Positions 102-11,770 of a DNA stretch of 11,770 bases are shown here, piece by piece. Source of the DNA: Firmicutes bacterium AM31-12AC (GTDB lineage: Bacteria > Bacillota > Clostridia > Lachnospirales > Lachnospiraceae); the NCBI GenBank assembly GCA_003480425.1, contig QUJA01000062.1:1-11770 (forward strand). The letters run 5' to 3'. Both the position numbers and the translations under genes were made by a program. The notes beneath the pieces are model-generated. The model was not told the origin of the DNA and made no database searches. It worked only from the letters and a program-made list of their open reading frames with translations. How positions within the stretch are numbered: position 1 is the stretch's first letter; each line of letters opens with the position of its first letter.

Positions 102-689
102 TTATAGCAGTGCACTCAAAATCAATACAATCAACGAAATAAAGGACTGATCGTCTCCTGATTTTGGGACACTTGCTGTATTTTTCACTGGTGTCTCATC
201 TTCCGCCTTATGTTGGATTGTAAAACTTAATGTCGGCGATTTATTCCCATCTTTTCTTTTAATTGCAGTCTTAACTAAAAAATCTTCTGAGCCATTCTGC
301 ATTACATAATTCTCTATGGTATAAACCTGCCCATCATAATCCTTATCATCTTTCTCAACAACCTGTTTCAGCTGATATCGATAAGTAGCTGCCTCCTCAT
401 AAGAAAAAACCAATTCCTTACTTTCATTACCATTAAGACTAAATTTCAACCTGTCTCCATTGCTTCCTTCCGGCATTGGATTGCCAGAATCTAAACTTGT
501 CAACTCATATTGAAACTCATCTGTAGTCCCGTTTGTTTTCCCTTTTACAGTCTGTTCCACCGTCAGAGCAGCTTCTTTATTTTTCCCCGCTGCATATACC
601 TGATTTGGAATGACCACACATACCATCATCACAAAAGCAAGGCATACCAGCTTTATTCTCTGTTTATATCTTTCACTTTTCACATACAT
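102..689 (-). CDS. Small FctB-like base pilin, frame broken in its C-terminal anchor
   Basis: This 195-residue secreted protein is a probable minor pilin that anchors the fibre to the wall. A signal peptide ends near VYA-A (residues 31-34). One Spy0128/FctA-like domain follows, with the typical YRYQLKQV strand (103-110) and YDGQVYTIENYV (118-129). The usual Asn of FxNxY, which forms an isopeptide bond, is not seen at the domain end. A sorting-like VPKSG (174-178) precedes a hydrophobic helix (183-195) that stops abruptly without the usual basic tail. The -1 frame continues from that point with IIVVYKWNKNRRV to a TAA at 64-66, so one base appears to be missing near 104-107; repaired, the protein has 208 residues. 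AGAGG lies only one base before the ATG at 689 but seven before an in-frame GTG at 683, which may be the true start. It follows the second sortase after 7 bp. Confidence 0.75.
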   Translation of the reverse strand: MYVKSERYKQRIKLVCLAFVMMVCVVIPNQVYAAGKNKEAALTVEQTVKGKTNGTTDEFQYELTSLDSGNPMPEGSNGDRLKFSLNGNESKELVFSYEEAATYRYQLKQVVEKDDKDYDGQVYTIENYVMQNGSEDFLVKTAIKRKDGNKSPTLSFTIQHKAEDETPVKNTASVPKSGDDQSFISLIVLILSALL

Positions 690-696
690 ACCTCTG

Positions 697-1647
697 TCAG
701 TTTTCCAGTTTTCTACTGTTATTTTTTGTTTTCTTTCTCTTTCCGCTCCTCTCCACTGCCATCAGTAACAAAATACTGAACAACAGCAGAATCAGAACAC
801 CTAATCGCTTCATACTAGTTTTCCAGAAAATCCCCCAGTCGATTCGGTCAATCTGACTGTTCCTTTTCAAAGTTTTCTTATACGTATCTTTATACGTTTG
901 TTTTGAAAGCTTTCCTATCAGAATATGCCTTCCGTTCGTGATATTTTCCGTACACGTAGACATCACTACCAGCCGGTCCTCTGTGGAAAGACTAATCTGA
1001 CGATACCACAAAGCAGTATCTTCTATCTCTTGCAAATACTGTTCTTTCCGGGAAACTTCCTGCACTGGTGTTACATAAAGACCTGTATTATAAGCATCCA
1101 ACTCCAAGAATGCAAATAACTCCAGACCATAATCTTTTCCATTGGTAAAAACATTACCATACAAATGACTGTCCGCAAAAGACGGATCCAGATACCGGTC
1201 AAAATCCCCGAACATCGCTCCGCCATCCATATGGTGACCATAAATAATGGTATTAAAATCTGAAAAATCCTTCTGATTCATATAATCCATGAAGATTGAG
1301 CCAGACAAGCTATATTCTCCACGCGGATTTCTCATTAAATATGTGCTGTTATCCTCCGACTGTACTACCGGATAATCCACATGTGTTCCATAAATCGTAA
1401 TCCAGCCACATACATCACTGTTCTGCGCCTTCAATTCGTCAAAATCCCCATAGTCTTCTTCCGTTGGACGATAGATTTCATAATGTTCCGGCATGGCATT
1501 TTCTTCCAACATGTAGCTGTCTCCAATGCCATAGGTTCCATAACAAAAAAGAACAACTAAAATAATCATCAAAATCCAATTCAATAACTCGTTACAAATA
1601 TCCAGTATACGAAACGCCTTGTCAGTTTCTGCGTTCTGTCTCTTCAT
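697..1647 (-). CDS. srtB: Class B sortase, pilus-associated (second of two)
   Basis: This 316-residue membrane transpeptidase cleaves sorting signals and joins pilins to each other or to the wall. An N-terminal membrane helix (about 23-42) is followed by the sortase barrel. The catalytic residues are visible: His138 in IIYGHHM, Cys232 in VVMSTCT and Arg240 in NGRHIL. A second membrane helix (283-297) ends in a basic KRKKTK tail; two membrane helices are common in pilus-dedicated sortases. The ATG is 7 bp after the stop of the preceding sortase, with GGAAAGGA inside that gene as ribosome binding site. It shares matching segments with its neighbour (EHYEIYRP/EQYAIYKP, QTYKDTY), so the pair arose by duplication. 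Which one polymerises pilin and which acts on another subunit cannot be told from sequence. Confidence 0.93.
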   Translation of the reverse strand: MKRQNAETDKAFRILDICNELLNWILMIILVVLFCYGTYGIGDSYMLEENAMPEHYEIYRPTEEDYGDFDELKAQNSDVCGWITIYGTHVDYPVVQSEDNSTYLMRNPRGEYSLSGSIFMDYMNQKDFSDFNTIIYGHHMDGGAMFGDFDRYLDPSFADSHLYGNVFTNGKDYGLELFAFLELDAYNTGLYVTPVQEVSRKEQYLQEIEDTALWYRQISLSTEDRLVVMSTCTENITNGRHILIGKLSKQTYKDTYKKTLKRNSQIDRIDWGIFWKTSMKRLGVLILLLFSILLLMAVERSGKRKKTKNNSRKLEN

Positions 1648-1654
1648 TTTGATG

Positions 1655-2575
1655 TTATTTCCGTCCTTTCCTTCTTCGTCTGCAAATCCACTGATCTGCG
1701 AAACAGATTAATATCAATAGGAGCAGTAATAAGAACAACGCAGCCTTCCATCCAGGCATAAAATCTCTCCATCCGCCTCGTCGGTCTACCGCTTCATGCC
1801 CGGCATGATCTTGATCTTTGGCACTGTATGTATCTTTGTATGTCTGGTCTGTAATTCTTGCTACAAGAATATCTCTTCCGTTAGTTGACTCTGATGAGCA
1901 AGTAGATAATAGAAGAATTCTATCATCTGCTTCTAACGTAATGTCATTCATATAAACTGCATGATTTCGAATCACTTCCATATAAGGGATACTGTCATTT
2001 CTTGTTACATTTATATTAAAAACAGAACTGTCATAAGCATCCGCTTCTATTAATGCAATGATTTCCAATCCAAAATTACGATTCTGAACAAATAGATTAC
2101 CATATGGGTGTGCTTCGTAAAAGGCTTGTTCTTTAAATTCCTTGATACTTCCGAACATGACATTTGGAACCATATTATGTCCATAGAGAATAGTATTAAA
2201 ATCCTGAAAATCCGGATTATTTTCGGAATCCATAAAAATTGCACCGGTCAGGGAATATTCACCTTCTGCATTCTTGTTAACATATTCCCAATTATCTTTT
2301 CCCTGTACAACCGGATAATCAATCGGGGTATCATACACTGTGATCCAGGCAATCACATCCGAATTCATCGACTGTAATTCCTGGAATCCCAGCGTATCTT
2401 CTTGAGGTTTATAAATCGCATATTGTTCTGACGTTGCTTCCTCTGCCAGATTCTGCGAATCCCATAATGCATAGCATCCATATACCAGACCCAGAAGCAA
2501 AAGCAGAAGTAAACCATAATCCAGTATTCCATTCATCCCTCTTATTACTCTGCAAATACCTCTGTGTCTGCACAT
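1655..2575 (-). CDS. srtB: Class B sortase, pilus-associated (first of two)
   Basis: This 306-residue membrane-bound cysteine transpeptidase sits directly after the major pilin, the position of SrtC2 in streptococcal FCT-3 pilus loci. It is therefore the better candidate for the pilin polymerase (inference from order). Helix 1 is at about residues 17-38. The sortase B core carries His133 in LYGHNM, Cys226 in LLSTCS and Arg234 in NGRDIL. Helix 2 is at about 277-297, followed by a cluster of Arg and Lys. An AGAGGA ribosome binding site lies about 10 bases before the ATG, and 33 bp separate it from the pilin stop. All catalytic residues are present and the frame is intact. Confidence 0.93.
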   Translation of the reverse strand: MCRHRGICRVIRGMNGILDYGLLLLLLLGLVYGCYALWDSQNLAEEATSEQYAIYKPQEDTLGFQELQSMNSDVIAWITVYDTPIDYPVVQGKDNWEYVNKNAEGEYSLTGAIFMDSENNPDFQDFNTILYGHNMVPNVMFGSIKEFKEQAFYEAHPYGNLFVQNRNFGLEIIALIEADAYDSSVFNINVTRNDSIPYMEVIRNHAVYMNDITLEADDRILLLSTCSSESTNGRDILVARITDQTYKDTYSAKDQDHAGHEAVDRRGGWRDFMPGWKAALFLLLLLLILICFADQWICRRRRKGRK

Positions 2576-2608: not shown

Positions 2609-3877
2609 TTATCTTCTGTTCATTCTCTTCTTGCTATTCATTGCTACGATACCTGCAAATGCAACAACTGCGATAGCAATCATGATAATGAATGGGAAGT
2701 TATTTACGATGATACCTGTTACTGCGATATCTTTGTAAGTGTTTGTGTAATCAACCTTGTTTTCCTGCTGTCCAAGAGTTTTGTTTTCAACCTTAAGATT
2801 CTTACCTACTGCTGCTGTTAATGTACTAGAATCTGCTTTTCCATTGAACATTGTCTTTGCTATTGCTGTCCAGTTTGCTACACCTTGCTGATCAACTGTT
2901 ACTTTAGATCCAGCATAGCAGCTCTTAATCATCATGCTCTTAGTATCTGGCAATGTAAATGTTACCTCTGCTCCATAAGTTCCAGTTTCTTGTTTTCCAT
3001 TTACATAATAAACATATGTATTATCAGTTGTAGCAATTCCTGATGGCTTTGTTACTGTCATAGTATAGTCGAAGCTTCCAGTTTGAGTTCCTTTGCTCTC
3101 AGTATTATTCGTTACTTTGAATGCGTAAGAGGCTGGCTTATTCGGATCTGGTACATCCGGATCTGTTGGATCTACGCTACCGGCTTTTGCAACATATTCA
3201 TTCACGAATTTAAGACCACTAAAGTTACTTTCTATACCACCTGTTGTTGTTCCTGGATTACCATTTACTTTTGTACCGTCAGTATTATCTGCTCCAGCAT
3301 CAGTCTTAGTATTAATAATTGAAAGACCTTTAATGTATAATTTACCATTTGTATCCTGTGCTACGAAAATATTAAGTTTGTATTCAGCCTTTGACGCTGT
3401 AAATACATCATTAGTTTTTGCCTTTTTTACAGTACTAGTTGACTTTACTGTATATACATATTCACCAGTTGTCATGTTTGTACTAGAATCCATTGCTGTT
3501 TTGAAACTTGCAAGAAAGTTATTGCTCTGTTTTCTTAACACTTTGATGTCTTTAGCAGTAGTATCTTTAATCAAATCTTCTCCTGCATTGAATTTAACAT
3601 TTGCAACTGAAATAGCCGGCATATCGTTCGTACTCATTCCTGAAGGTGCAGCAGTTTTAGTAAAGGTAAAGCTGACATCATTCTCAGGAGTCACTACATC
3701 ATTTCCCATCTTGTACTCTACAGTAATTGCTGCACTTGGAGTATCTGTTGGTTTCCATGTAGCAGGACCATTATTATCTGCTGCGTTTACATTTGCTACA
3801 TTTCCGAGACACATTGTTCCGACTAATACTGCGGATGCAAAGAGTCTGCTCATTTTTTGTAAGGATTTTTTCTTCAT
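2609..3877 (-). CDS. Major (backbone) pilin, FctA/Spy0128-like
   Basis: This 422-residue precursor is the probable repeating subunit of the pilus shaft. A signal peptide ends near VNA (30-32). Domain 1 (about 48-229) has Lys56 in VEYK, Glu139 in TGEYVYTV and Asn226 in FVNEY, which are candidate residues for an intramolecular Lys-Asn isopeptide bond. A linker rich in Asp and Pro (234-247) leads to domain 2 (about 249-382), which ends in DYTNTY with Asn379. The sorting region is AVTGI (385-389), a membrane helix (about 391-413) and a basic tail ending RMNRR. It is not LPXTG; it resembles the QVPTG type handled by class B pilus sortases in streptococci. A good GGAG ribosome binding site lies about 8 bases before the ATG. 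It sits between the SipA-like gene and the sortases, as fctA does. Confidence 0.87.
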   Translation of the reverse strand: MKKKSLQKMSRLFASAVLVGTMCLGNVANVNAADNNGPATWKPTDTPSAAITVEYKMGNDVVTPENDVSFTFTKTAAPSGMSTNDMPAISVANVKFNAGEDLIKDTTAKDIKVLRKQSNNFLASFKTAMDSSTNMTTGEYVYTVKSTSTVKKAKTNDVFTASKAEYKLNIFVAQDTNGKLYIKGLSIINTKTDAGADNTDGTKVNGNPGTTTGGIESNFSGLKFVNEYVAKAGSVDPTDPDVPDPNKPASYAFKVTNNTESKGTQTGSFDYTMTVTKPSGIATTDNTYVYYVNGKQETGTYGAEVTFTLPDTKSMMIKSCYAGSKVTVDQQGVANWTAIAKTMFNGKADSSTLTAAVGKNLKVENKTLGQQENKVDYTNTYKDIAVTGIIVNNFPFIIMIAIAVVAFAGIVAMNSKKRMNRR

Positions 3878-3964: not shown

Positions 3965-4501
3965 TCAAAAGCCTCTTCTTCGTACTATCGTCATAACTTT
4001 TCCCTTCGTGTCTTTCACATCTACTGCTCCGTACACTCGACTGTCTGACGCATTCTCACGGCTGTCTCCCAGGACGAAAATCTGCCCTTCCTGTAGTTTG
4101 ATTGGGAAATCCACTCCCGTATCATACCGCTGTGTCTTTTCGTAAATCTGATGTTCTTGTTGCGGTGCTCCGTTAATTGTAAGACCGTCCTCTGTAATAT
4201 CCACTACATCTCCTGCAGTTGCAATCACTCTCCGGACCTGTTCTTTTCCTTGATAGTTCAAAACAACCAGGTCCGAAGCTACATAACTCTTCCTTAACCG
4301 ATAATAAAAGACCAAATCACCATCTTTCACTGCCGGAAGCATGGCATTGTCTGCATAACGGAACACTCCGAAGATAAATGTGAAGATAACCACAATTGCA
4401 GTTGCAATTGCTACAATCTTCAACAGAAGGTACAAAATCTCACGGAAAATCCCTCCTGCCACTGATTCCTCAGAAATTACTTTTTCCTCTGCAGTGTCCA
4501 T
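3965..4501 (-). CDS. SipA-like, probably non-catalytic signal peptidase I homologue
   Basis: This 178-residue protein has the fold of type I signal peptidase: one N-terminal membrane helix (about 22-46), then an extracytoplasmic domain. The box holding the nucleophile normally reads SMxP; here it is NAMLP, with Ala53 in place of Ser. The general-base Lys box (normally VKRV) reads VRRV, with Arg90 in place of Lys. The last box is intact: VLGDSRENASDSRVYG (143-158). Loss of both catalytic residues with the fold retained is the hallmark of streptococcal SipA, which is needed for pilus polymerisation rather than for cleavage. An assembly chaperone role is therefore likely here. Its ATG abuts the TAG of the adhesin, and GGAGGAG inside the adhesin's last codons serves as ribosome binding site, so translation is coupled. 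Automatic annotation would probably call it an active signal peptidase. Confidence 0.88.
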   Translation of the reverse strand: MDTAEEKVISEESVAGGIFREILYLLLKIVAIATAIVVIFTFIFGVFRYADNAMLPAVKDGDLVFYYRLRKSYVASDLVVLNYQGKEQVRRVIATAGDVVDITEDGLTINGAPQQEHQIYEKTQRYDTGVDFPIKLQEGQIFVLGDSRENASDSRVYGAVDVKDTKGKVMTIVRRRGF

Positions 4502-5491
4502 CTAGGATCTCCTCCTCCCTCTCACTCGTAAGATAGAAACTCCTGTGATTAGCAGAACTCCCATCAGACCTACAAGTAACAGACTGTTATCTGTATTTCC
4601 TCCATCAACGCCTGTAACTACGATATTCTTCGTATTGGTAAAAACAAAATTGGTACTGATCTCATCTACATCTACATTCGCTACACTTGAAATAACTTTT
4701 GCATCTTTTTGAATCTCGCAATTTGTTCCGTTGCTGTCTTGAATGATGCTCTTAATCGTATATTGGTTATCCCCAGGTATCAGTTCTAAACTCTGTCCTG
4801 CTTTCAGCTTAAATGTAATCTCCTGATTCGCATCTACTGTCAGCGATGTAATATTTGGTGCATTTACTGCCGGTGATACATAACTTCCTTTACACGGAAT
4901 CACTTTTCCTTTTGGATAACTTGTCTTAACCTTATAAGTAAATTCTTGATTATTCCAGATACCATCTCCCTTTATCATCTGTTTAATTATTACACCTGGT
5001 TTCTCATAATCTGCATTTAAGATTACCGATTTTGTCATCTTTGCTGTTTTCAGATCTACTTTTTTCTTGTTCGGATCTGTGCTATCTGACCACTGCGTAA
5101 ATTTCTGGCTTGTATTATCATTATGGAAGCCTGGATTAGATGGAATCTGACTTGGCGAAAGTTTCTGTCCCTTTGCAACCAATTCTCTCTTTAGTCTTAT
5201 GTTATTTTCAAAACTTGCTTTCTTGTACTGTGCATTTCCTGATGCATCAAATCCAACCAGTACATACTGCTGTGCTGTCGTATTACCATAATAGTCCTGA
5301 GCATATACATAGAGCATCTCTCCATTATTCATTGACTCCACAGCCGTATAAGTTCCATCTTCTTTTGTAGGAGTTTTGTAAGTATCTGAAAATTTTCCAG
5401 TTTTGTTGTTACGTACAAGTGAAACCTCCGTTCCCTTATATTTTGTTGCATTTGCAACATATGTAAAGTTCTCCTGCGACTCGTTTGTCAA
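4502..5491 (-). CDS. C-terminal fragment of the tip adhesin, with sorting signal
   Basis: This is the third piece of the broken adhesin frame, 329 residues if started at the TTG at 5491. It has no signal peptide and continues module 2 without loss: TSDLTNES and YVANATKYK correspond to TSDIADVS and YKANATQYS in module 1. It then holds LYVYAQDYYGN (about 60-70), an InlB-repeat-like stretch (QIPSNPGF...TQW), and a Spy0128-like domain ending VFTNTKN. The C terminus is a wall-sorting region: VVTGV (291-295), a membrane helix (about 303-320) and the basic tail RVRGRRRS. The TTG is not preceded by a convincing ribosome binding site, so independent translation is unlikely. Its stop is adjacent to the start of the SipA-like gene. 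Confidence 0.8.
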   Translation of the reverse strand: MTNESQENFTYVANATKYKGTEVSLVRNNKTGKFSDTYKTPTKEDGTYTAVESMNNGEMLYVYAQDYYGNTTAQQYVLVGFDASGNAQYKKASFENNIRLKRELVAKGQKLSPSQIPSNPGFHNDNTSQKFTQWSDSTDPNKKKVDLKTAKMTKSVILNADYEKPGVIIKQMIKGDGIWNNQEFTYKVKTSYPKGKVIPCKGSYVSPAVNAPNITSLTVDANQEITFKLKAGQSLELIPGDNQYTIKSIIQDSNGTNCEIQKDAKVISSVANVDVDEISTNFVFTNTKNIVVTGVDGGNTDNSLLLVGLMGVLLITGVSILRVRGRRRS

Positions 5492-6071
5492 ATCGGACGT
5501 ACCATTGCTGCATCAATCATTTCATCCTTGACTTGAATCTTTGAAATTGTAAACTCCGTGTCATTATCTTTATCTTTTGATTTCGTGATAGTTCCTGTAT
5601 TCTCTATTCTAGGACCCTTAGTATCTAGCAGATATTTTGTCCACTTTCCTGTAAGATCGCGCACATAAATGAAATAATTCTTATTCTGGTCGAACTTATA
5701 AGTATTAAGCATCTTAAATGTCCATACCGGTTTTTCTGAAGTTGCCGTCACTGTTTTACCTTCAATATCTGTAACACTTCCTCTGGTAAGTTTCCTGCAA
5801 CTGCACAAACTTTCCAATCTCTCAGATTCCGATGCATTATAACGGAATTTGAATCCTCTGTCTGCCTTTGGTGCATCATAGGTGCTGAGATATACCTGTG
5901 CATATGTACATCCTGGGAATTCTGCTCTCTCCGATGTTGAGAATGAACTTCCCTGTGTGTCAATTCCATCTCCATAAAGATCTCTGATATAACTGTCAGT
6001 TTTCTTCCATAGTTATCTCCCTGGTCTTTTGTCCATTCACCTTCCATCTTTTGCTGATAGATTACCGGCTG
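4628..6071 (-). repeat. Adhesin module 2 (about 480 residues)
   Basis: This is the second copy of the adhesin's large C-terminal module, spread over three reading frames by the two breaks. Landmarks shared with copy 1, in order: VIYQQK/LVYQAK, RDLYGDGIDT/RDLYRDGIDT, YLSTYD/YLSTQD, LLDTKGP/LLDTKGP, TSDL/TSDI, DYYGN/DGYGN, SQIPSNP/AQVPSSP and FTYKV/FTYTI. The correspondence continues through both breaks without missing segments. Protein identity is moderate, so the duplication is old. Confidence 0.75.
5488..5817 (-). pseudogene. Middle fragment of the tip adhesin, between two frame breaks
   Basis: This frame carries part of module 2 and is open from about 6000 down to its TGA at 5488. The translated part upstream of 5817 (SYIRDLYGDGIDT, QVYLSTYDAP) matches module 1 (IYLRDLYRDGIDT, QVYLSTQDVQ). 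Further on, NYFIYVRDLTGKW and LLDTKGP match NYYIYARDIAGNW and LLDTKGP. It is therefore an internal segment of the same protein, not a separate gene. Its own candidate start codon is fortuitous. A one-base shift connects it to the upstream frame near 6000-6003 and to the downstream frame near 5494-5505. Confidence 0.8.
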
Positions 6072-9000
6072 ACTGGAATCATTGCTATTAACAAATGCAA
6101 GTGAGCGATTCGTTGCATTCACACTGATTTCCCCTGTGTAATTTTGGTTATATTGTTTATTCTCCTCTGTTGTGTACACTGTCCAGTAAGGGGATTCCTT
6201 GTTCTGACTTACAGATACGTAATCATAATAACCTGGCAGCTGAATCGTAACACTCTGTCCATGGGAAAGCTCAATTGTAAATTCTCCATTATAATCTCCC
6301 GTTTTCGTTCCATTAGCCGGTGCCGTAACCCCTGATATTCCTGCTATCGTTCCACCTGTATATGGAAAGTCCTGCCCATTATATCGATTACCTGGATCTG
6401 GTTGCGCATAAATGGTATAAGTAAATTTTTTGTTCTTATCTGCAACACTTCCTGTAACCTGGTTACTAATTGTTAAGGTCGGATACGTCCACTGCGGATA
6501 ATAAGTAGTTGCACCACTTACCGTCACACTTGTTAGAAAAACTTGAGCTTTTCCACTGTTCGTAGAATTATACCAGTAGCGGAATGTCTGATTTCCAAGT
6601 ACCGGACTTGATGGCACCTGTGCACTCTTCAAAGTACTTCCCACCAGTCCCAGTGTAGATGAAGTGGTAGACCCATCTCTGAACTTTCCAGTTGATGTAG
6701 CTCCACCGCTCTGTGCATCAAAAACAATTGGTACATAAGTAAATCTTGAGATATTTCCATAGCCATCCTTTACAAACACATATAATTTTTCCGTTACTGA
6801 AACAGATACATTACTGAGTGTACACGTCCCAGTACTTGTATTGAGACTTGCCGTACTATAACTAACTCCGGATTCCCATGGATTCTTTCCTGTTTTGTTA
6901 TATCGTACTGTAGCATCTAGCTTCTTATCGTTATAACTATACTGTGTTGCATTCGCTTTGTAACTTACATCTGCAATATCTGATGTTCCATATGTTGCAG
7001 TTTGTATTGGATCTGTAAATTTTAGCCCCGTAAATGTATAACTGTAAGTTCCATCTGATACTTTCGTTGATGTAATATTTGTGTAAGTACTTGTCGGACC
7101 TTTCGTATCCAGAAGGAATTTACTCCAGTTTCCGGCAATATCTCTTGCGTAGATATAGTAATTTGTGTTTGTCTGATAAGTACGTGACTCTAATTTCAAA
7201 TTCAATACTGGTGATTCTGTTGTAGCTGTCCTTGGCGTTCCATTGATATCTCTAAACGCCCCATTGCGCATCCAACTATAAGAATATACATTTGCTGGCT
7301 TCAACTGAAGATCTGTACTGGAATTATATGTATATCCATAAACTCCATCCTTTAACTGAACATCCTGCGTACTTAAATACACCTGAAAACCAGTTGGATA
7401 CGCACCATCCGATGCATCATTAATGCTAATGCCACTCGTGTCAATTCCGTCACGATATAAATCCCTCAGATAAATCTCCAGTTGTCCACTCTGACTTCCA
7501 TTCGAATTGAGAGACATATTCGTTGTCTTCGCCTGATATACCAGCGGCGCATATGTATCTGCACGAAGTACGATCTGGTTACTGTTTCTAGAACCTATTG
7601 CCAAATAATATTGTTTGTCTGCAATCCAGTTATACTGCTCCAGCTTCGCATCATTCGAATAATCGAACTGAATCAACGGATATTCCACCGCTCCCTTATG
7701 TGTTGGAGCAAACGTTGTTGATATGCGAAGCTCACGATTTGTTGGTACTCGCAACGTATTCTTAATAATTAATGGTCTTCCACTTGGAGAAGTCTCACCT
7801 TTATAGTCATATGTAACCGATACTTCTGTATTTGTACCATCTGTCGTAAGACTGTCAATTGTTCGAGGTATCCTTTCGGAAGGCAAATAATCTAACATCA
7901 GTTTTCCTGAATTCTTGAGTGAGATATCCGGCCTTTTTCCACCGTTTCCAAATCCACCTGTCACTGAATTGGACGCATCTCCAAGATGAAGTTCTCCTCC
8001 ATCAATCTCTATCTGGTCAAAGTAGTCCAAATTTACACTTGTAGCATCTTTTGGTCTCACTTTCGCAATTACATACAGTCTAGACGATCCATCTGGTGCA
8101 TTGAATGCTCCTTTGCAATCCCCTAATAAAACAACTTCATGATTTGAAGAATCCTTATTAAGGTAAACCTTTGCTGTATGCCCACTTGAAACAGTTGGGC
8201 TAGTGAACATCAGCTGTGTGTTCTCTGCTACCAGAATATAATCTTCCTTAACTTTTACGGTTTTATAAGTCGGATCAACTTTTGCAGCACAATCCTTCAA
8301 AAAAATGTACAGATTTTTAACACTATAGTATGCCGGATCAATTATTATAGTATCAGTGTGGCCTGTACAGGACTCCACATTAATCGTTGTATTTCCTAAT
8401 CCATCTTGTTGCTTTGAAGCATAGATTTTATTTACATTCACGCAATTTTTTAATGTGAGCGTAGAGCCTGATGTTCCCTGCGTACTGTTTCCTCCTGCGT
8501 TTATTGTTACATCACCTGCGAATGTACAGTTTTCAAATGTCAGATTGTGCCCATTTCCATGCATCACATACGGATACTTATGAGTTAAGAGGAAATCTGA
8601 GCGAAATTGTGCATTTTTCCATGTCAGTGACTTAAATTGTGGATAAACAGTACCCCACAGGTTCACTCCTGTATTTGGAGAACCCTGCACATTTGATCCC
8701 GACAATCCAGAATCTACTATCATTGTCACGTTCTTATTTGTAAATCCTGTTGGATCATTAAATGCAGTAACATCATCATTAACCAGAATATATCCCCTTG
8801 CAAACCATATCGTATAATAGGTTCCTGTCTGCCCTCGTAGATATTTTAGCACCGCTGCAAATGAATCTGCCGAATATAATGCAGTTCCTGTATTGGAACT
8901 TCCACTATATAGATAGATTGTATTTTGTCCATTTGTTGTATACAGCTTAATCAAGTTATTCGTTGAATCTTGTGCCATTGTACAAGATACATTCGCATGT

Positions 9001-11477
9001 GTTTTTAATGTCCCTATCGCACTTACTGACAGATAAAAATAGCTCCTTATACGAATCATGGAAAATGCATTACTTGCGGTTGTATTTGCCGGTCTTGCCA
9101 TCAGTTCAACAGTAGCTTTATAAGAATCTGAAATTCTATCCAGATAATCCACATCTACAACATTTGTACTATTTCCCCCCATGGCATTGTATATCTGAAA
9201 TGTGTTATAATTATCTTCTAATACAATTCTTCCAAAACGCTGGCGATTCCATGCTTCATAGCAATCTCCACCAGAACAAATGGTTGAACTTTTTGTTGCT
9301 ACATATCCAATACAAGTCGGCAAGTCCGGTTTATAGTCCTTTGGAACATAGCGATCTCCACCTTTGGCATCCTGCTTTTTCTGTTCTGTCCAATAATGAT
9401 AGAAACTGGAATCATACTGCATATGTCCGAAATTGTTCACACCCCCATCACATGTAACAGAATTATTCAACCTCAGATATCCCCAGCCAAATACGTTAGC
9501 AACCTGCGTGTTATTGACTTCAATATAACCTTTCGATGTGGTTGCTTGATCATATCCAGCATGTTCATATGCTCCTACAAATCTCAGACTTTCCTTAATA
9601 TCATTGAATATATACGATATAGATCCTGCTGTGCAGCCCTCCTTCGCTGTAAACCAGGTTCCACAGTCCGCCGAATAACTTCCAGATGCTCTTAGATAGA
9701 GGTCTCCACTTACAGTTCCATACAATCCCCAGAAAGATCCACCTACGGTATGGACTTCATCCGGTTTCAACATTGGATCTACTACAGTTGTATCGAATTT
9801 ACGAATTGCGGTATCTTTCAGTGTTGCATCGACATTTCCTGTATGAGTATAGGTGGTATTCTTATATGGCCCACTTGATGCATATACATTTCCATAGATT
9901 GTACAATTTGTCATTGTTAGATTAATATCTCCTGTTGACTTATCCTGTCCGCCTCCAAAGATCTGCTTTACAGGAGCATCCTTTGTCATCTCTACATCTT
10001 TAAATTCCAAGTTATAGGATACACTGGTGCTATTAGGAGTATATCTTCCACCATAAATTGCAGTTACTGCTCCGCCTATAAATTTTACATCATCAAAAGT
10101 GGTGTCATTCTGGTTTCCATAAACTGTTGATTCGCTCCAGTTCAGATTAACGTGTGTAAAATAAGCATTGAATCCATTAAAATAGATTCTTTGATTTTGG
10201 GAAGTAAATGTTGTCCAACTGCTATAAGAAGTCCCTGTGCTATAATTGGTTGCTCCTGTGAATACAATTGTTGGTTTATTCGTTGTTCTATTCCCTAGTG
10301 CTCCACTCGTACTGTAATCTCTTCCCATCGCACCTAAATCATCTGAGCTTGCCGTGTAATTATCTAGGAATGTAATTTTAAAGCTGTTGGATGTTGTATC
10401 AGTATTGATTGCAGTCAGCGCATCTTTCAAGGTTCCATACGCATGTCTTACAGTACCTGCTGAAGGCGTCTGGTTGGTTCCTCCCTGCACCAGAACTGAC
10501 CACTTTCCATTCGTTCCTGCAGCACCTACACGCTGTACTACTGTCATATCCTGTGTCAGGGCAATCAAGCTTGCTATCGACATATTCGCCTGTGTACTCA
10601 ACAATGAAATTCCATCATCGGCTGCTGTCATCTGTACTTCGCTAATCTTATCGGCTGGAATGACATCTCCCATCTTAATCTCAGTCCCATCTGGATAGGA
10701 CAACATAATACCTGCCGTCTTTGCTACTTGCCAGCCAATCAGCGGATTTGTGTTCTCCGCATCTGCATCCTCTTCCAACTGTACATCATCTGAAAGTGAA
10801 ACCTCCGGTGCCTGAAGCCCTTCTCCTGTCACAGCCATCTGTGTGTAGCTGTCATATTCTTCTTCCGATACAGCAGATGCTGTCAGCTCCTGCGTATTAC
10901 TTTCTATCCCTTTCTCTTTCTGCTGTTCAATCAGCTTTTGTGTTGTCTCATCCCCAAGTGCCTGTTCAATTACTGCACTTTTTGCTTCTTCCTGTGCTTC
11001 TCCTTCGGTATAGCTGTCCGGTGCATCTACCTGTAAATTCTGTGATTTCGGAAGATAATAGTTGACTGTTACGGGTACAACAGCATCTGCGATATTTACC
11101 GTCTCTTCCGCAGCCTCACCTGTTGTCTCTACTTCTGGTGACTGTTCTGCGTCGGCTGCATCTTCTGTTTGTTGTTCTCCCGACTGTATCGGTTCCGATG
11201 ATTCGACGGTTGTATCTTCCGATACCTTATCTTCTGTCTGTTGTTCTTCCGATTGTATCGGTTCCGACGGTTCGGAGATTGCATCTTCCGACATTGGCAG
11301 TACTGTCTCTGCTCCATCCACCACAGTTTTCTCTTCTGTATTACTTTCCTGACTGTAATTCGTATCTGCGGCGAATACAGCCGGCATGATTTGGGAATGA
11401 ATGAGCACAATTGCTAACAAAAATGCTAAAATTCTTCGTAAGATAACACTCCTTCTTTTCTTCTGTCCTTTCTTCAT
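5748..11477 (-). CDS. Giant pilus tip adhesin, N-terminal part (frame broken near 6000)
   Basis: This open frame of 1909 codons begins the operon; about 1826 codons are authentic and the rest are out of frame. With the two downstream pieces the repaired protein has 2325 residues. The signal peptide is MKKGQKKRR plus a hydrophobic core, ending AVFA (34-37). Residues 40-130 are acidic, rich in Glu, Ser and Thr, with a 23-residue repeat. Residues about 400-1130 look like a parallel beta-helix: short repeated turns with recurring NC or similar pairs (NCTIYG, NCTFAG, KNCVN). Module 1 (about 1311-1800) has Ig-like strands, an InlB-type repeat and a Spy0128-like domain ending AFVNSND. No TQXA thioester motif is evident, unlike streptococcal Cpa. 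The leading position, size and C-terminal sorting signal (in the last fragment) suggest the tip adhesin. GAGGG lies nine bases before the ATG. The ligand is unknown. Confidence 0.82.
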   Translation of the reverse strand: MKKGQKKRRSVILRRILAFLLAIVLIHSQIMPAVFAADTNYSQESNTEEKTVVDGAETVLPMSEDAISEPSEPIQSEEQQTEDKVSEDTTVESSEPIQSGEQQTEDAADAEQSPEVETTGEAAEETVNIADAVVPVTVNYYLPKSQNLQVDAPDSYTEGEAQEEAKSAVIEQALGDETTQKLIEQQKEKGIESNTQELTASAVSEEEYDSYTQMAVTGEGLQAPEVSLSDDVQLEEDADAENTNPLIGWQVAKTAGIMLSYPDGTEIKMGDVIPADKISEVQMTAADDGISLLSTQANMSIASLIALTQDMTVVQRVGAAGTNGKWSVLVQGGTNQTPSAGTVRHAYGTLKDALTAINTDTTSNSFKITFLDNYTASSDDLGAMGRDYSTSGALGNRTTNKPTIVFTGATNYSTGTSYSSWTTFTSQNQRIYFNGFNAYFTHVNLNWSESTVYGNQNDTTFDDVKFIGGAVTAIYGGRYTPNSTSVSYNLEFKDVEMTKDAPVKQIFGGGQDKSTGDINLTMTNCTIYGNVYASSGPYKNTTYTHTGNVDATLKDTAIRKFDTTVVDPMLKPDEVHTVGGSFWGLYGTVSGDLYLRASGSYSADCGTWFTAKEGCTAGSISYIFNDIKESLRFVGAYEHAGYDQATTSKGYIEVNNTQVANVFGWGYLRLNNSVTCDGGVNNFGHMQYDSSFYHYWTEQKKQDAKGGDRYVPKDYKPDLPTCIGYVATKSSTICSGGDCYEAWNRQRFGRIVLEDNYNTFQIYNAMGGNSTNVVDVDYLDRISDSYKATVELMARPANTTASNAFSMIRIRSYFYLSVSAIGTLKTHANVSCTMAQDSTNNLIKLYTTNGQNTIYLYSGSSNTGTALYSADSFAAVLKYLRGQTGTYYTIWFARGYILVNDDVTAFNDPTGFTNKNVTMIVDSGLSGSNVQGSPNTGVNLWGTVYPQFKSLTWKNAQFRSDFLLTHKYPYVMHGNGHNLTFENCTFAGDVTINAGGNSTQGTSGSTLTLKNCVNVNKIYASKQQDGLGNTTINVESCTGHTDTIIIDPAYYSVKNLYIFLKDCAAKVDPTYKTVKVKEDYILVAENTQLMFTSPTVSSGHTAKVYLNKDSSNHEVVLLGDCKGAFNAPDGSSRLYVIAKVRPKDATSVNLDYFDQIEIDGGELHLGDASNSVTGGFGNGGKRPDISLKNSGKLMLDYLPSERIPRTIDSLTTDGTNTEVSVTYDYKGETSPSGRPLIIKNTLRVPTNRELRISTTFAPTHKGAVEYPLIQFDYSNDAKLEQYNWIADKQYYLAIGSRNSNQIVLRADTYAPLVYQAKTTNMSLNSNGSQSGQLEIYLRDLYRDGIDTSGISINDASDGAYPTGFQVYLSTQDVQLKDGVYGYTYNSSTDLQLKPANVYSYSWMRNGAFRDINGTPRTATTESPVLNLKLESRTYQTNTNYYIYARDIAGNWSKFLLDTKGPTSTYTNITSTKVSDGTYSYTFTGLKFTDPIQTATYGTSDIADVSYKANATQYSYNDKKLDATVRYNKTGKNPWESGVSYSTASLNTSTGTCTLSNVSVSVTEKLYVFVKDGYGNISRFTYVPIVFDAQSGGATSTGKFRDGSTTSSTLGLVGSTLKSAQVPSSPVLGNQTFRYWYNSTNSGKAQVFLTSVTVSGATTYYPQWTYPTLTISNQVTGSVADKNKKFTYTIYAQPDPGNRYNGQDFPYTGGTIAGISGVTAPANGTKTGDYNGEFTIELSHGQSVTIQLPGYYDYVSVSQNKESPYWTVYTTEENKQYNQNYTGEISVNATNRSLAFVNSNDSSQPVIYQQKMEGEWTKDQGDNYGRKLTVISEIFMEMELTHREVHSQHRREQNSQDVHMHRYISAPMMHQRQTEDSNSVIMHRNLRDWKVCAVAGNLPEEVLQILKVKQ
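6078..7547 (-). repeat. Adhesin module 1 (about 490 residues)
   Basis: This is the first copy of the tandem module, residues about 1311-1800 of the adhesin. It contains Ig-like sections with LLDTKGP and FVKDGYGN, an InlB B-repeat-like part ending YYPQWTYP, and a Spy0128/DUF7601-like domain (TISNQVTGSVADKNKKFTY to LAFVNSND). Such stacked domains usually form a stalk that holds the binding domain away from the cell. Confidence 0.75.
11161..11298 (-). repeat. Imperfect 69-bp tandem repeat, two copies
   Basis: Two in-frame units start at 11161 and 11230. They encode two copies of SEPIQSxEQQTED followed by diverging acidic residues. The repeat lies in the acidic region just after the adhesin signal peptide. 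The 69-bp period keeps the frame, so copy-number change would alter stalk length but not disrupt the gene. Confidence 0.7.
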
Positions 11478-11669
11478 AAACTCTGTCCCTCACTTCTTCT
11501 CATGTTTCTTTAATATTCTGAATTCAAATAAAAAAAACCAAATTTCACAAACAACTGTCTCTTCAATGATGTTCATAAAATCCGGTTTTGCCTACTGAAA
11601 GTAACAATCCTACTTATATTAATTTATTAATTTGTTTTTCCATGTTATAATTTCTTGTCAATTTTTTAT
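11478..11669 (-). promoter_or_regulatory. Long AT-rich 5' leader of the pilus operon
   Basis: About 190 bases separate the predicted transcription start (about seven bases after the -10) from the adhesin ATG. The leader contains a second TTGACA (11656-11661) without a good -10 at the right distance, overlapping ATTAAT palindromes near 11620-11636, and a run of eight U (11529-11536). I find no strong stem before that run, so a terminator is not supported. Near the ATG, GAGGG is a good ribosome binding site. No known riboswitch is recognised. Confidence 0.4.
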
Positions 11670-11675
11670 AACAAC

Positions 11676-11705
11676 ATCATACCCCCCCCCCGTATTTTTT
11701 GTCAA
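11676..11705 (-). promoter_or_regulatory. Sigma-A promoter with homopolymeric spacer
   Basis: On the minus strand, the -35 TTGACA (11700-11705) matches consensus six of six, and the -10 TATGAT (11676-11681) five of six. The spacer is 18 nt: AAAAATAC then ten G. Spacers of 17 nt are optimal for housekeeping sigma factors, so gain or loss of one G would change strength. It is the only strong promoter upstream of the adhesin, so it probably drives the whole operon. The layout matches known phase-variable promoters such as Neisseria porA and opc and Bordetella fim. Confidence 0.75.
11682..11691. repeat. Ten-base C/G homopolymer between -35 and -10
   Basis: There are ten consecutive C on the + strand (G on the coding strand) in otherwise strongly AT-rich DNA. 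It is the longest G/C run I saw in the window. Tracts of this length are prone to slipped-strand mispairing. The exact count may be unreliable in a consensus sequence, both biologically and technically. Confidence 0.9.
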
Positions 11706-11760
11706 TACCTTATAAATAAGTTTTTTCACAACCCCTCATGTGGAAAAAATAAGCCAAACA

Positions 11761-11770
11761 GGGACGGAGT
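11761..11770 (-). repeat. Right copy of flanking inverted repeat
   Basis: GGGACGGAGT at the window edge is the reverse complement of 32-41. It is cut by the window end, so the repeat may be longer. It lies about 55 bp upstream of the -35 element. Confidence 0.45.

Follow-up and report, generated by a model that had tools for sequence, protein, structure and literature searches.

A predicted pilus operon promoter with a probably slippage-prone poly-G spacer, and the recurrence of its layout in Clostridia

A predicted pilus operon and the site upstream of its adhesin gene

The window, by which we mean the whole 11,770-nucleotide stretch of Lachnospiraceae DNA that was analyzed, carries a gene cluster on the minus strand that begins with a large adhesin gene:

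5748..11477, minus strand: large adhesin-like surface protein, first gene, with an export signal and DUF7601 (domain match; frame broken)
3965..4501, minus strand: signal peptidase I (Peptidase_S26, TIGR02227)
2609..3877, minus strand: probable major pilin (weak DUF7601 match below the Pfam cut-off; C-terminal sorting-like tail seen by eye)
1655..2575, minus strand: class B sortase (TIGR03064, 190 bits)
697..1647, minus strand: second class B sortase (TIGR03064, 191 bits)
102..689, minus strand: small pilin-like surface protein (weak TIGR03786 isopeptide-linkage match, below the cut-off)

With two class B sortases beside pilin-like DUF7601 proteins and a signal peptidase, the cluster has the make-up of a sortase-assembled pilus operon, and pilus assembly is predicted from these genes. 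The sortases and the peptidase are firm assignments, whereas the pilin labels were given from gene position, weak matches to domains and an inspection of the C-terminal tails by eye. Two breaks interrupt the adhesin frame, near 5990 and near 5490, each at a short homopolymer, with the remainder of the protein in 5488-5817 and 4502-5491; unbroken relatives exist, and all except two of 120 relatives listed are 2,317-2,336 residues long. The breaks reflect either decay of this copy or indel errors in the sequence.

At E values up to 0.001, 708 relatives of the adhesin were found among 7,990 candidates scored. The adhesin had no match in the representative-genome scan, where the single remote relative of a sortase (L001, 49% identical) came from Candidatus Scybalocola faecavium, a member of the Lachnospiraceae (Clostridia) whose genome (G001) served as the centre of the family and class samples used below. 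Among 397 Lachnospiraceae genomes the adhesin gave merely weak partial matches, in 12 genomes (best E 4.5e-15), and copies of the locus were absent from the viral contigs and from the plasmids and phages scanned. A sortase search of the genus of G371 returned a match in 75 of 77 genomes, with identities of 25-37% among the matches listed. The window likely comes from a gut Clostridia bacterium, the gut habitat being an assumption.

Upstream of the adhesin gene lie the following features:

11700..11705, minus strand: -35 hexamer TTGACA (6/6 consensus letters)
11682..11699, minus strand: 18-nt spacer, 8 nt plus G10 (11691-11682), with G10 abutting the -10 (read from the sequence)
11676..11681, minus strand: -10 hexamer TATGAT (5/6 consensus letters)
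11650..11715, minus strand: 22-nt direct repeat, copies at 11694-11715 and 11650-11671, 82% alike and 44 nt apart
11643..11673, no strand assigned: perfect 8-nt dyad with arms TGTTATAA and TTATAACA, around the expected transcription start
11530..11589, minus strand: terminator-like hairpin, stem 11589-11534 (24 pairs) with T8 (11537-11530), 52 nt before the start codon

The minus strand from 11705 to 11676 reads TTGACA-AAAAATAC-GGGGGGGGGG-TATGAT, the plus strand showing C at 11682-11691, so that the perfect -35, near-perfect -10 and 18-nt spacer with ten G given in a preliminary description of this DNA are exact. A leader of 198 nt separates the -10 from the adhesin ATG (11477). In 10500-11770 the number of promoter-like sites (3) was not above that in shuffles (mean 2.3); the poly-G site had the top score, 11 of 12, and was the sole site so high, the other two scoring 9. 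A second TTGACA (11661-11656), checked by eye, is not followed by a suitably spaced -10 hexamer. G10 is the longest G or C run of the window, the next longest being 6, and only ∼0.005 runs of ten or more are expected at the window's composition. The upstream region, 11478-11770, has 96 A, 107 T, 63 C and 27 G on the plus strand. Because of the two homopolymer-associated breaks in the adhesin frame, the exact count of ten G is uncertain, and it becomes an approximate count if indel errors in the sequence are real.

Each copy of the 22-nt repeat holds TTATAA and TTGACA, and one copy is the source of the -35. The repeat is possibly a regulator site, or else a product of chance in AT-rich DNA, and the 8-nt dyad is a possible operator. 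Searches of the window against Rfam and for tRNAs gave no match.

Recurrence of the promoter layout and the genes behind it

The family and class samples were searched with the pattern TTGACN{2,12}GGGGGGGGN{0,6}TATNAT (TTGAC, gap, G8, gap, TATNAT), which allows spacers of 9-25 nt and matches the window once. Of the 397 genomes in the Lachnospiraceae sample, 22 had a site, with 28 matches in all and none for the reversed-pattern control, compared with 2 matches in 2 genomes for a poly-C version of the pattern in the same sample; the restriction of this strict pattern to 22 genomes counts against the reading that we prefer below. The class sample (Clostridia) gave 20 matches in 7 of 391 genomes, again with zero for the reversed control. 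With a looser pattern (seven G, wider gaps) there were 146 matches in 44 of 61 genomes of the genus of G746, and the looser seven-G pattern gave 34 matches in 22 of 77 genomes of the genus of G371, both with reversed controls of zero; these two genera were picked as already positive, so their rates describe those genera and not the class. The stereotyped promoter was present in most sampled genomes of one genus, and a single 1.7-Mb genome of the G746 genus (G780) had as many as 21 sites. The other two of the three genomes in the genus of G270 had no pattern match. A shorter pattern, G8-N{0,3}-TATAAT, matched 23 of 29 genomes with one reversed-control match, a count that is descriptive as the 29 were chosen as already positive. 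The viral contigs held 4 poly-G and 2 poly-C sites, too few to use.

Although 9-25 nt were allowed, spacers measured 16-20 nt in 23 of the 28 family matches, and 14-20 nt in 24 of 28 family and 18 of 20 class matches. The G tract touches the -10 in 22 of the 28 family matches, as it does in the window, and for the 32 of 48 matches with an abutting tract the distance from the -35 to the tract was strongly non-uniform (chi-square p 7e-7). In the G746 genus, where statistics use 145 of the 146 matches after one overlapping duplicate row was dropped, spacers ranged from 13 to 21 nt and were commonest at 15 nt, where copies in G780 make up many of the sites, and at 18 nt, and TGN preceded the -10 in 61 of 145 matches.

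The genes directly downstream were mostly those of exported proteins. By a home-made heuristic for both gene calls and export-signal calls, rather than a trained predictor, 19 of 26 first genes in the family had an export signal compared with 73 of 290 other genes of the same stretches (Fisher 1.6e-6, with such p-values overstating independence because several loci are orthologous to one another or are duplicates in the same genome). First genes in the other sets exceeded their controls as well (19/24 vs 3/24, 20/27 vs 10/29 and 12/13 vs 4/16). Sites with no callable first gene were excluded: 2 of 28 in the family, 7 of 20 in the class, 5 of 29 loci (of 146 matches) in the G746 genus, and 2 of 29 matches in 28 loci (of 34 matches) in the G371 genus. 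The adhesin of the window passes the same heuristic, so that the window has both the promoter and the exported first gene of the design.

A Pfam scan covered 25 of the 26 family first genes (L057, at 95 aa, was left out). Cell-wall-binding, Ig-like or BspA-type domains were found at L042, L047, L048, L054, L059 and L067, a TctC lipoprotein at L049 and DUF4230 at L043. The matches ahead of an AraC-type regulator (L062) and an ABC transporter (L069) have 11-nt spacers and look like chance. No pilin or sortase family was matched among the 25 scanned genes, so that in these data only the window places a pilus under such a promoter. Diguanylate cyclases were the first genes at L061 and L068. Within the G746 genus (L078-L097 in part, L128-L156, L193-L196), similar promoter families stood ahead of related lipoprotein genes.

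Because the layout recurs on the same strand and mostly ahead of exported genes, the promoter reading of the site, already proposed in the preliminary description, is well supported; the range of spacers and the reversed control of zero in four scans add to this. The recurring Clostridia design consists of TTGACA, a few nucleotides, usually G8-G11 placed against or close to the -10 and almost always on the coding strand, and TATAAT, mostly ahead of genes for exported proteins.

Tract length in related promoters

The earlier suggestion that slippage tunes this promoter held in part: the promoter reading is well supported, and of 10 comparisons between related promoters 6 showed a difference in tract length and 4 showed none, the comparisons having been chosen by eye (20 stretches in 9 groups, plus further by-eye pairs). 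The clearest case is L185/L186 (G8/G9), whose flanks are 97.5% identical upstream and 100% downstream over 200 nt with no other indel, and L080/L090 (G11/G12) are 98% identical over 60 nt upstream. Only these two pairs have near-identical flanks, as the other differing pairs are 73-94% identical: L190/L191 (G13/G11; 85% and 93.5%), two copies within L187 (G10/G9; 80% and 92%), two copies within L192 (G9/G10; 81% and 85%), and L193 with G7 against L194-L196 with G8 (73-87% and 84-90%). Equal lengths were seen in L199/L200 (G10), L201/L202/L203 (G9), L197/L198 (G9) and L078/L091/L094/L096 (G9), and the G780 promoter types with ten and with three copies were all G8. Left out of the comparison were L188/L189 (G13/G12, flanks only 73% alike), L204 (G9, flanks 67-79% alike to L201-L203), and L025/L038 and L028/L039 (flanks 33-38%, ungapped).

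Tract lengths from G7 to G13 occurred, and in a scan of the G746 genus more than one length was present in 3 of 6 groups of sites whose flanking letters are identical. Longer tracts had been expected to come with a shorter remaining spacer, but no such compensation was found (rho 0.01); this would agree with promoters sampled in different states and equally with a loose requirement for spacing. Part of the length differences could stem from homopolymer errors in draft assemblies. Taken together, these comparisons support, short of proof, a change of tract length in sibling promoters.

Proposed slippage, its alternatives and known systems

The reading that we prefer, and hold to be likely, is that of a pilus-operon promoter with a slippage-prone G10 spacer, one member of the recurring Clostridia design. 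Replication slips would add or remove G in the tract, and one or two slipped G would move the distance between -35 and -10 from 18 to 16-20 nt. The spacing of these hexamers is a well-known determinant of promoter strength, and an altered spacing would raise or lower transcription of the adhesin, pilins and sortases in sub-populations. We infer that slippage is the cause of the length differences and that spacing sets expression. The strand bias of the tract (28 matches with poly-G, 2 with poly-C) goes beyond what spacing can account for and may reflect a contact made by G of the coding strand beside the -10, similar to that in extended -10 promoters.

A slippage switch acting on transcription is known in Bordetella. 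The preliminary description also named Neisseria, which is borne out by porA of Neisseria meningitidis, where, in the accessible part of the report, 11, 10 and 9 G in the promoter give graded expression (PMC3639595). The likeness is close, with poly-G (G9-G11) between the -35 and -10 of a surface-protein promoter in porA (PMC3639595) and a homopolymer in the same place in the window, and by this likeness tract length may tune expression in grades. The porA case belongs to a Gram-negative pathogen, whereas the present design, known from sequence, stands ahead of a pilus operon and of many Clostridia genes for exported proteins. Bifidobacterium belongs to a different phylum from that of the window. 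In the gut commensal Bifidobacterium breve, G-tract slippage controls sortase-dependent pili, and the available text also mentions further G-tracts in promoter spacers (PMC9187656). The tracts that govern its pili are found within the first gene and work through frameshifting, in contrast to the promoter spacer described here (PMC9187656); such an intragenic switch does not apply to the window, whose tract precedes the 11477 start codon. A promoter-near homopolymer also serves as a rheostat for an adhesin in sabA of Helicobacter pylori, but according to the accessible part of that report it is a T tract that adjoins the -35 and acts through DNA shape and UP-like elements (PMC4081817).

One alternative explanation gives the G tract a fixed role in the spacer, contacted by the sigma factor or RNA polymerase next to the -10 or bound by a regulator of surface genes; it would define a regulon and not vary in phase. 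The tract lies against or near the -10, and it is almost exclusively G on the coding strand (28 vs 2 C). The equal lengths in L199/L200, L201/L202/L203, L197/L198, L078/L091/L094/L096 and the G780 copies would likewise be expected of a fixed element. However, related copies do differ in length, in L185/L186 by the sole indel within 200 nt on either side, lengths of 7 to 13 are loose for a fixed site, and long G tracts slip in other bacteria, as far as the text available from two reports goes (PMC3639595, PMC9187656). We therefore regard a fixed spacer as rather unlikely. An artefact of two-colour sequencing or of assembly is hardly credible, even though the window ends 79 nt beyond the tract and the two adhesin frame breaks suggest indel errors or decay, for the tract sits between two good hexamers and away from the very end, and the layout is common to many other assemblies with reversed controls of zero; an error could alter the count but would hardly create the site.

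The leader hairpin could instead be the main switch, by attenuation, with a promoter that is simply on. A precedent is the phase-variable pil1 pilus operon of S. gallolyticus, which, in the part of the report at hand, carries a repeat-driven leader peptide and, ahead of its pilus genes and behind the promoter, a leader terminator of -18.7 kcal/mol (PMC3894217), and the hairpin of the window, with its T8, reached -20.3 kcal/mol in a 68-nt segment chosen by eye (z -4.44, 0 of 200 shuffles as good). The preliminary description mentions neither this hairpin nor the breaks in the adhesin frame. Taken whole, the leader showed no folding advantage over its shuffles (z -1.02; 29 of 200 shuffles were as good), and a simple terminator scan, with loops of 3-8 only, listed none. 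In pil1, GCAGA repeats change the leader peptide, again as given in the accessible text (PMC3894217), whereas the window has no leader repeat and carries its homopolymer in the promoter: inspection by eye gave no leader peptide that has a convincing ribosome site, and 11478-11770 holds no tandem repeat, only two short direct-repeat families, neither of them tandem, so that a pil1-type repeat within a leader peptide does not apply. A similar hairpin was found in 5 of 103 other poly-G leaders, in a scan that took the first ribosome-site-like motif as the leader end and may have cut some leaders short; because 98 of 103 lack one, the hairpin stands outside the shared design. Attenuation as the main switch is thus improbable, although it may act in addition, the predicted hairpin adding a second, attenuator-like layer at this locus. 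We give very little weight to an invertible promoter with an incidental G run. A 10-nt, 90% inverted repeat does flank the promoter (11662-11671 / 11710-11719), and the invertons of human gut bacteria are frequently located close to surface genes according to the text available (PMC11892184), but the arms are short, AT-rich and of low complexity, and no recombinase was found among the 8 ORFs scanned (Pfam; 7 also in NCBIfam).

Phase variation in Clostridia is known mainly as DNA inversion, as in C. difficile. The accessible part of a review of phase variation describes invertible promoters through which c-di-GMP genes, among other traits, are controlled stochastically in that species (PMC11868660), and the diguanylate cyclases at L061 and L068 parallel these phase-variable enzymes, with recombinase-driven inversion there and a spacer homopolymer here. 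The words 'spacer' and 'Firmicutes' are absent from the available text of the same review (PMC11868660), and the survey PMC2831843, as far as its text was available, treats tracts within coding genes and lacks the word 'intergenic'. We found no description of poly-G promoter spacers in Clostridia among the open literature matches listed. The larger finding is the coding-strand poly-G spacer promoter design itself, present in several Clostridia groups. Beyond slippage at the single locus, we lean towards a Clostridia contingency system, in which a stereotyped TTGACA-N-poly-G-TATAAT, its G run nearly always on the coding strand, stands ahead of many adhesins and lipoproteins, some diguanylate cyclases and one pilus operon, and in which promoters that slip independently would yield combinatorial surface diversity without recombinases. 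If poly-G promoters tune surface genes throughout Clostridia, a major source of variation among cells and strains has escaped notice, and the blurring of homopolymers in assemblies may be the reason.

Several minor observations concern contig ends and the adhesin. Contig ends are no more than ∼130 bases away from several of the poly-G promoters (G334:C31:36-66, G746:C40:55-81, G780:C29:8-34, G780:C50:97-123 and G799:C89:106-132), as if assemblies might break there. The window itself has an inverted 10-nt repeat at its ends (32-41 / 11761-11770; ACTCCGTCCC / GGGACGGAGT), and the longest contig measures 11.4-12.1 kb for 51 of the 120 adhesin relatives listed (counted by eye), so that contigs apparently break off at either end of the operon. 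In 10 aligned relatives of the 120 listed, residues 1 to ∼350 of the adhesin (about 10430-11477) are almost invariant and later parts vary more, suggesting mosaic alleles.
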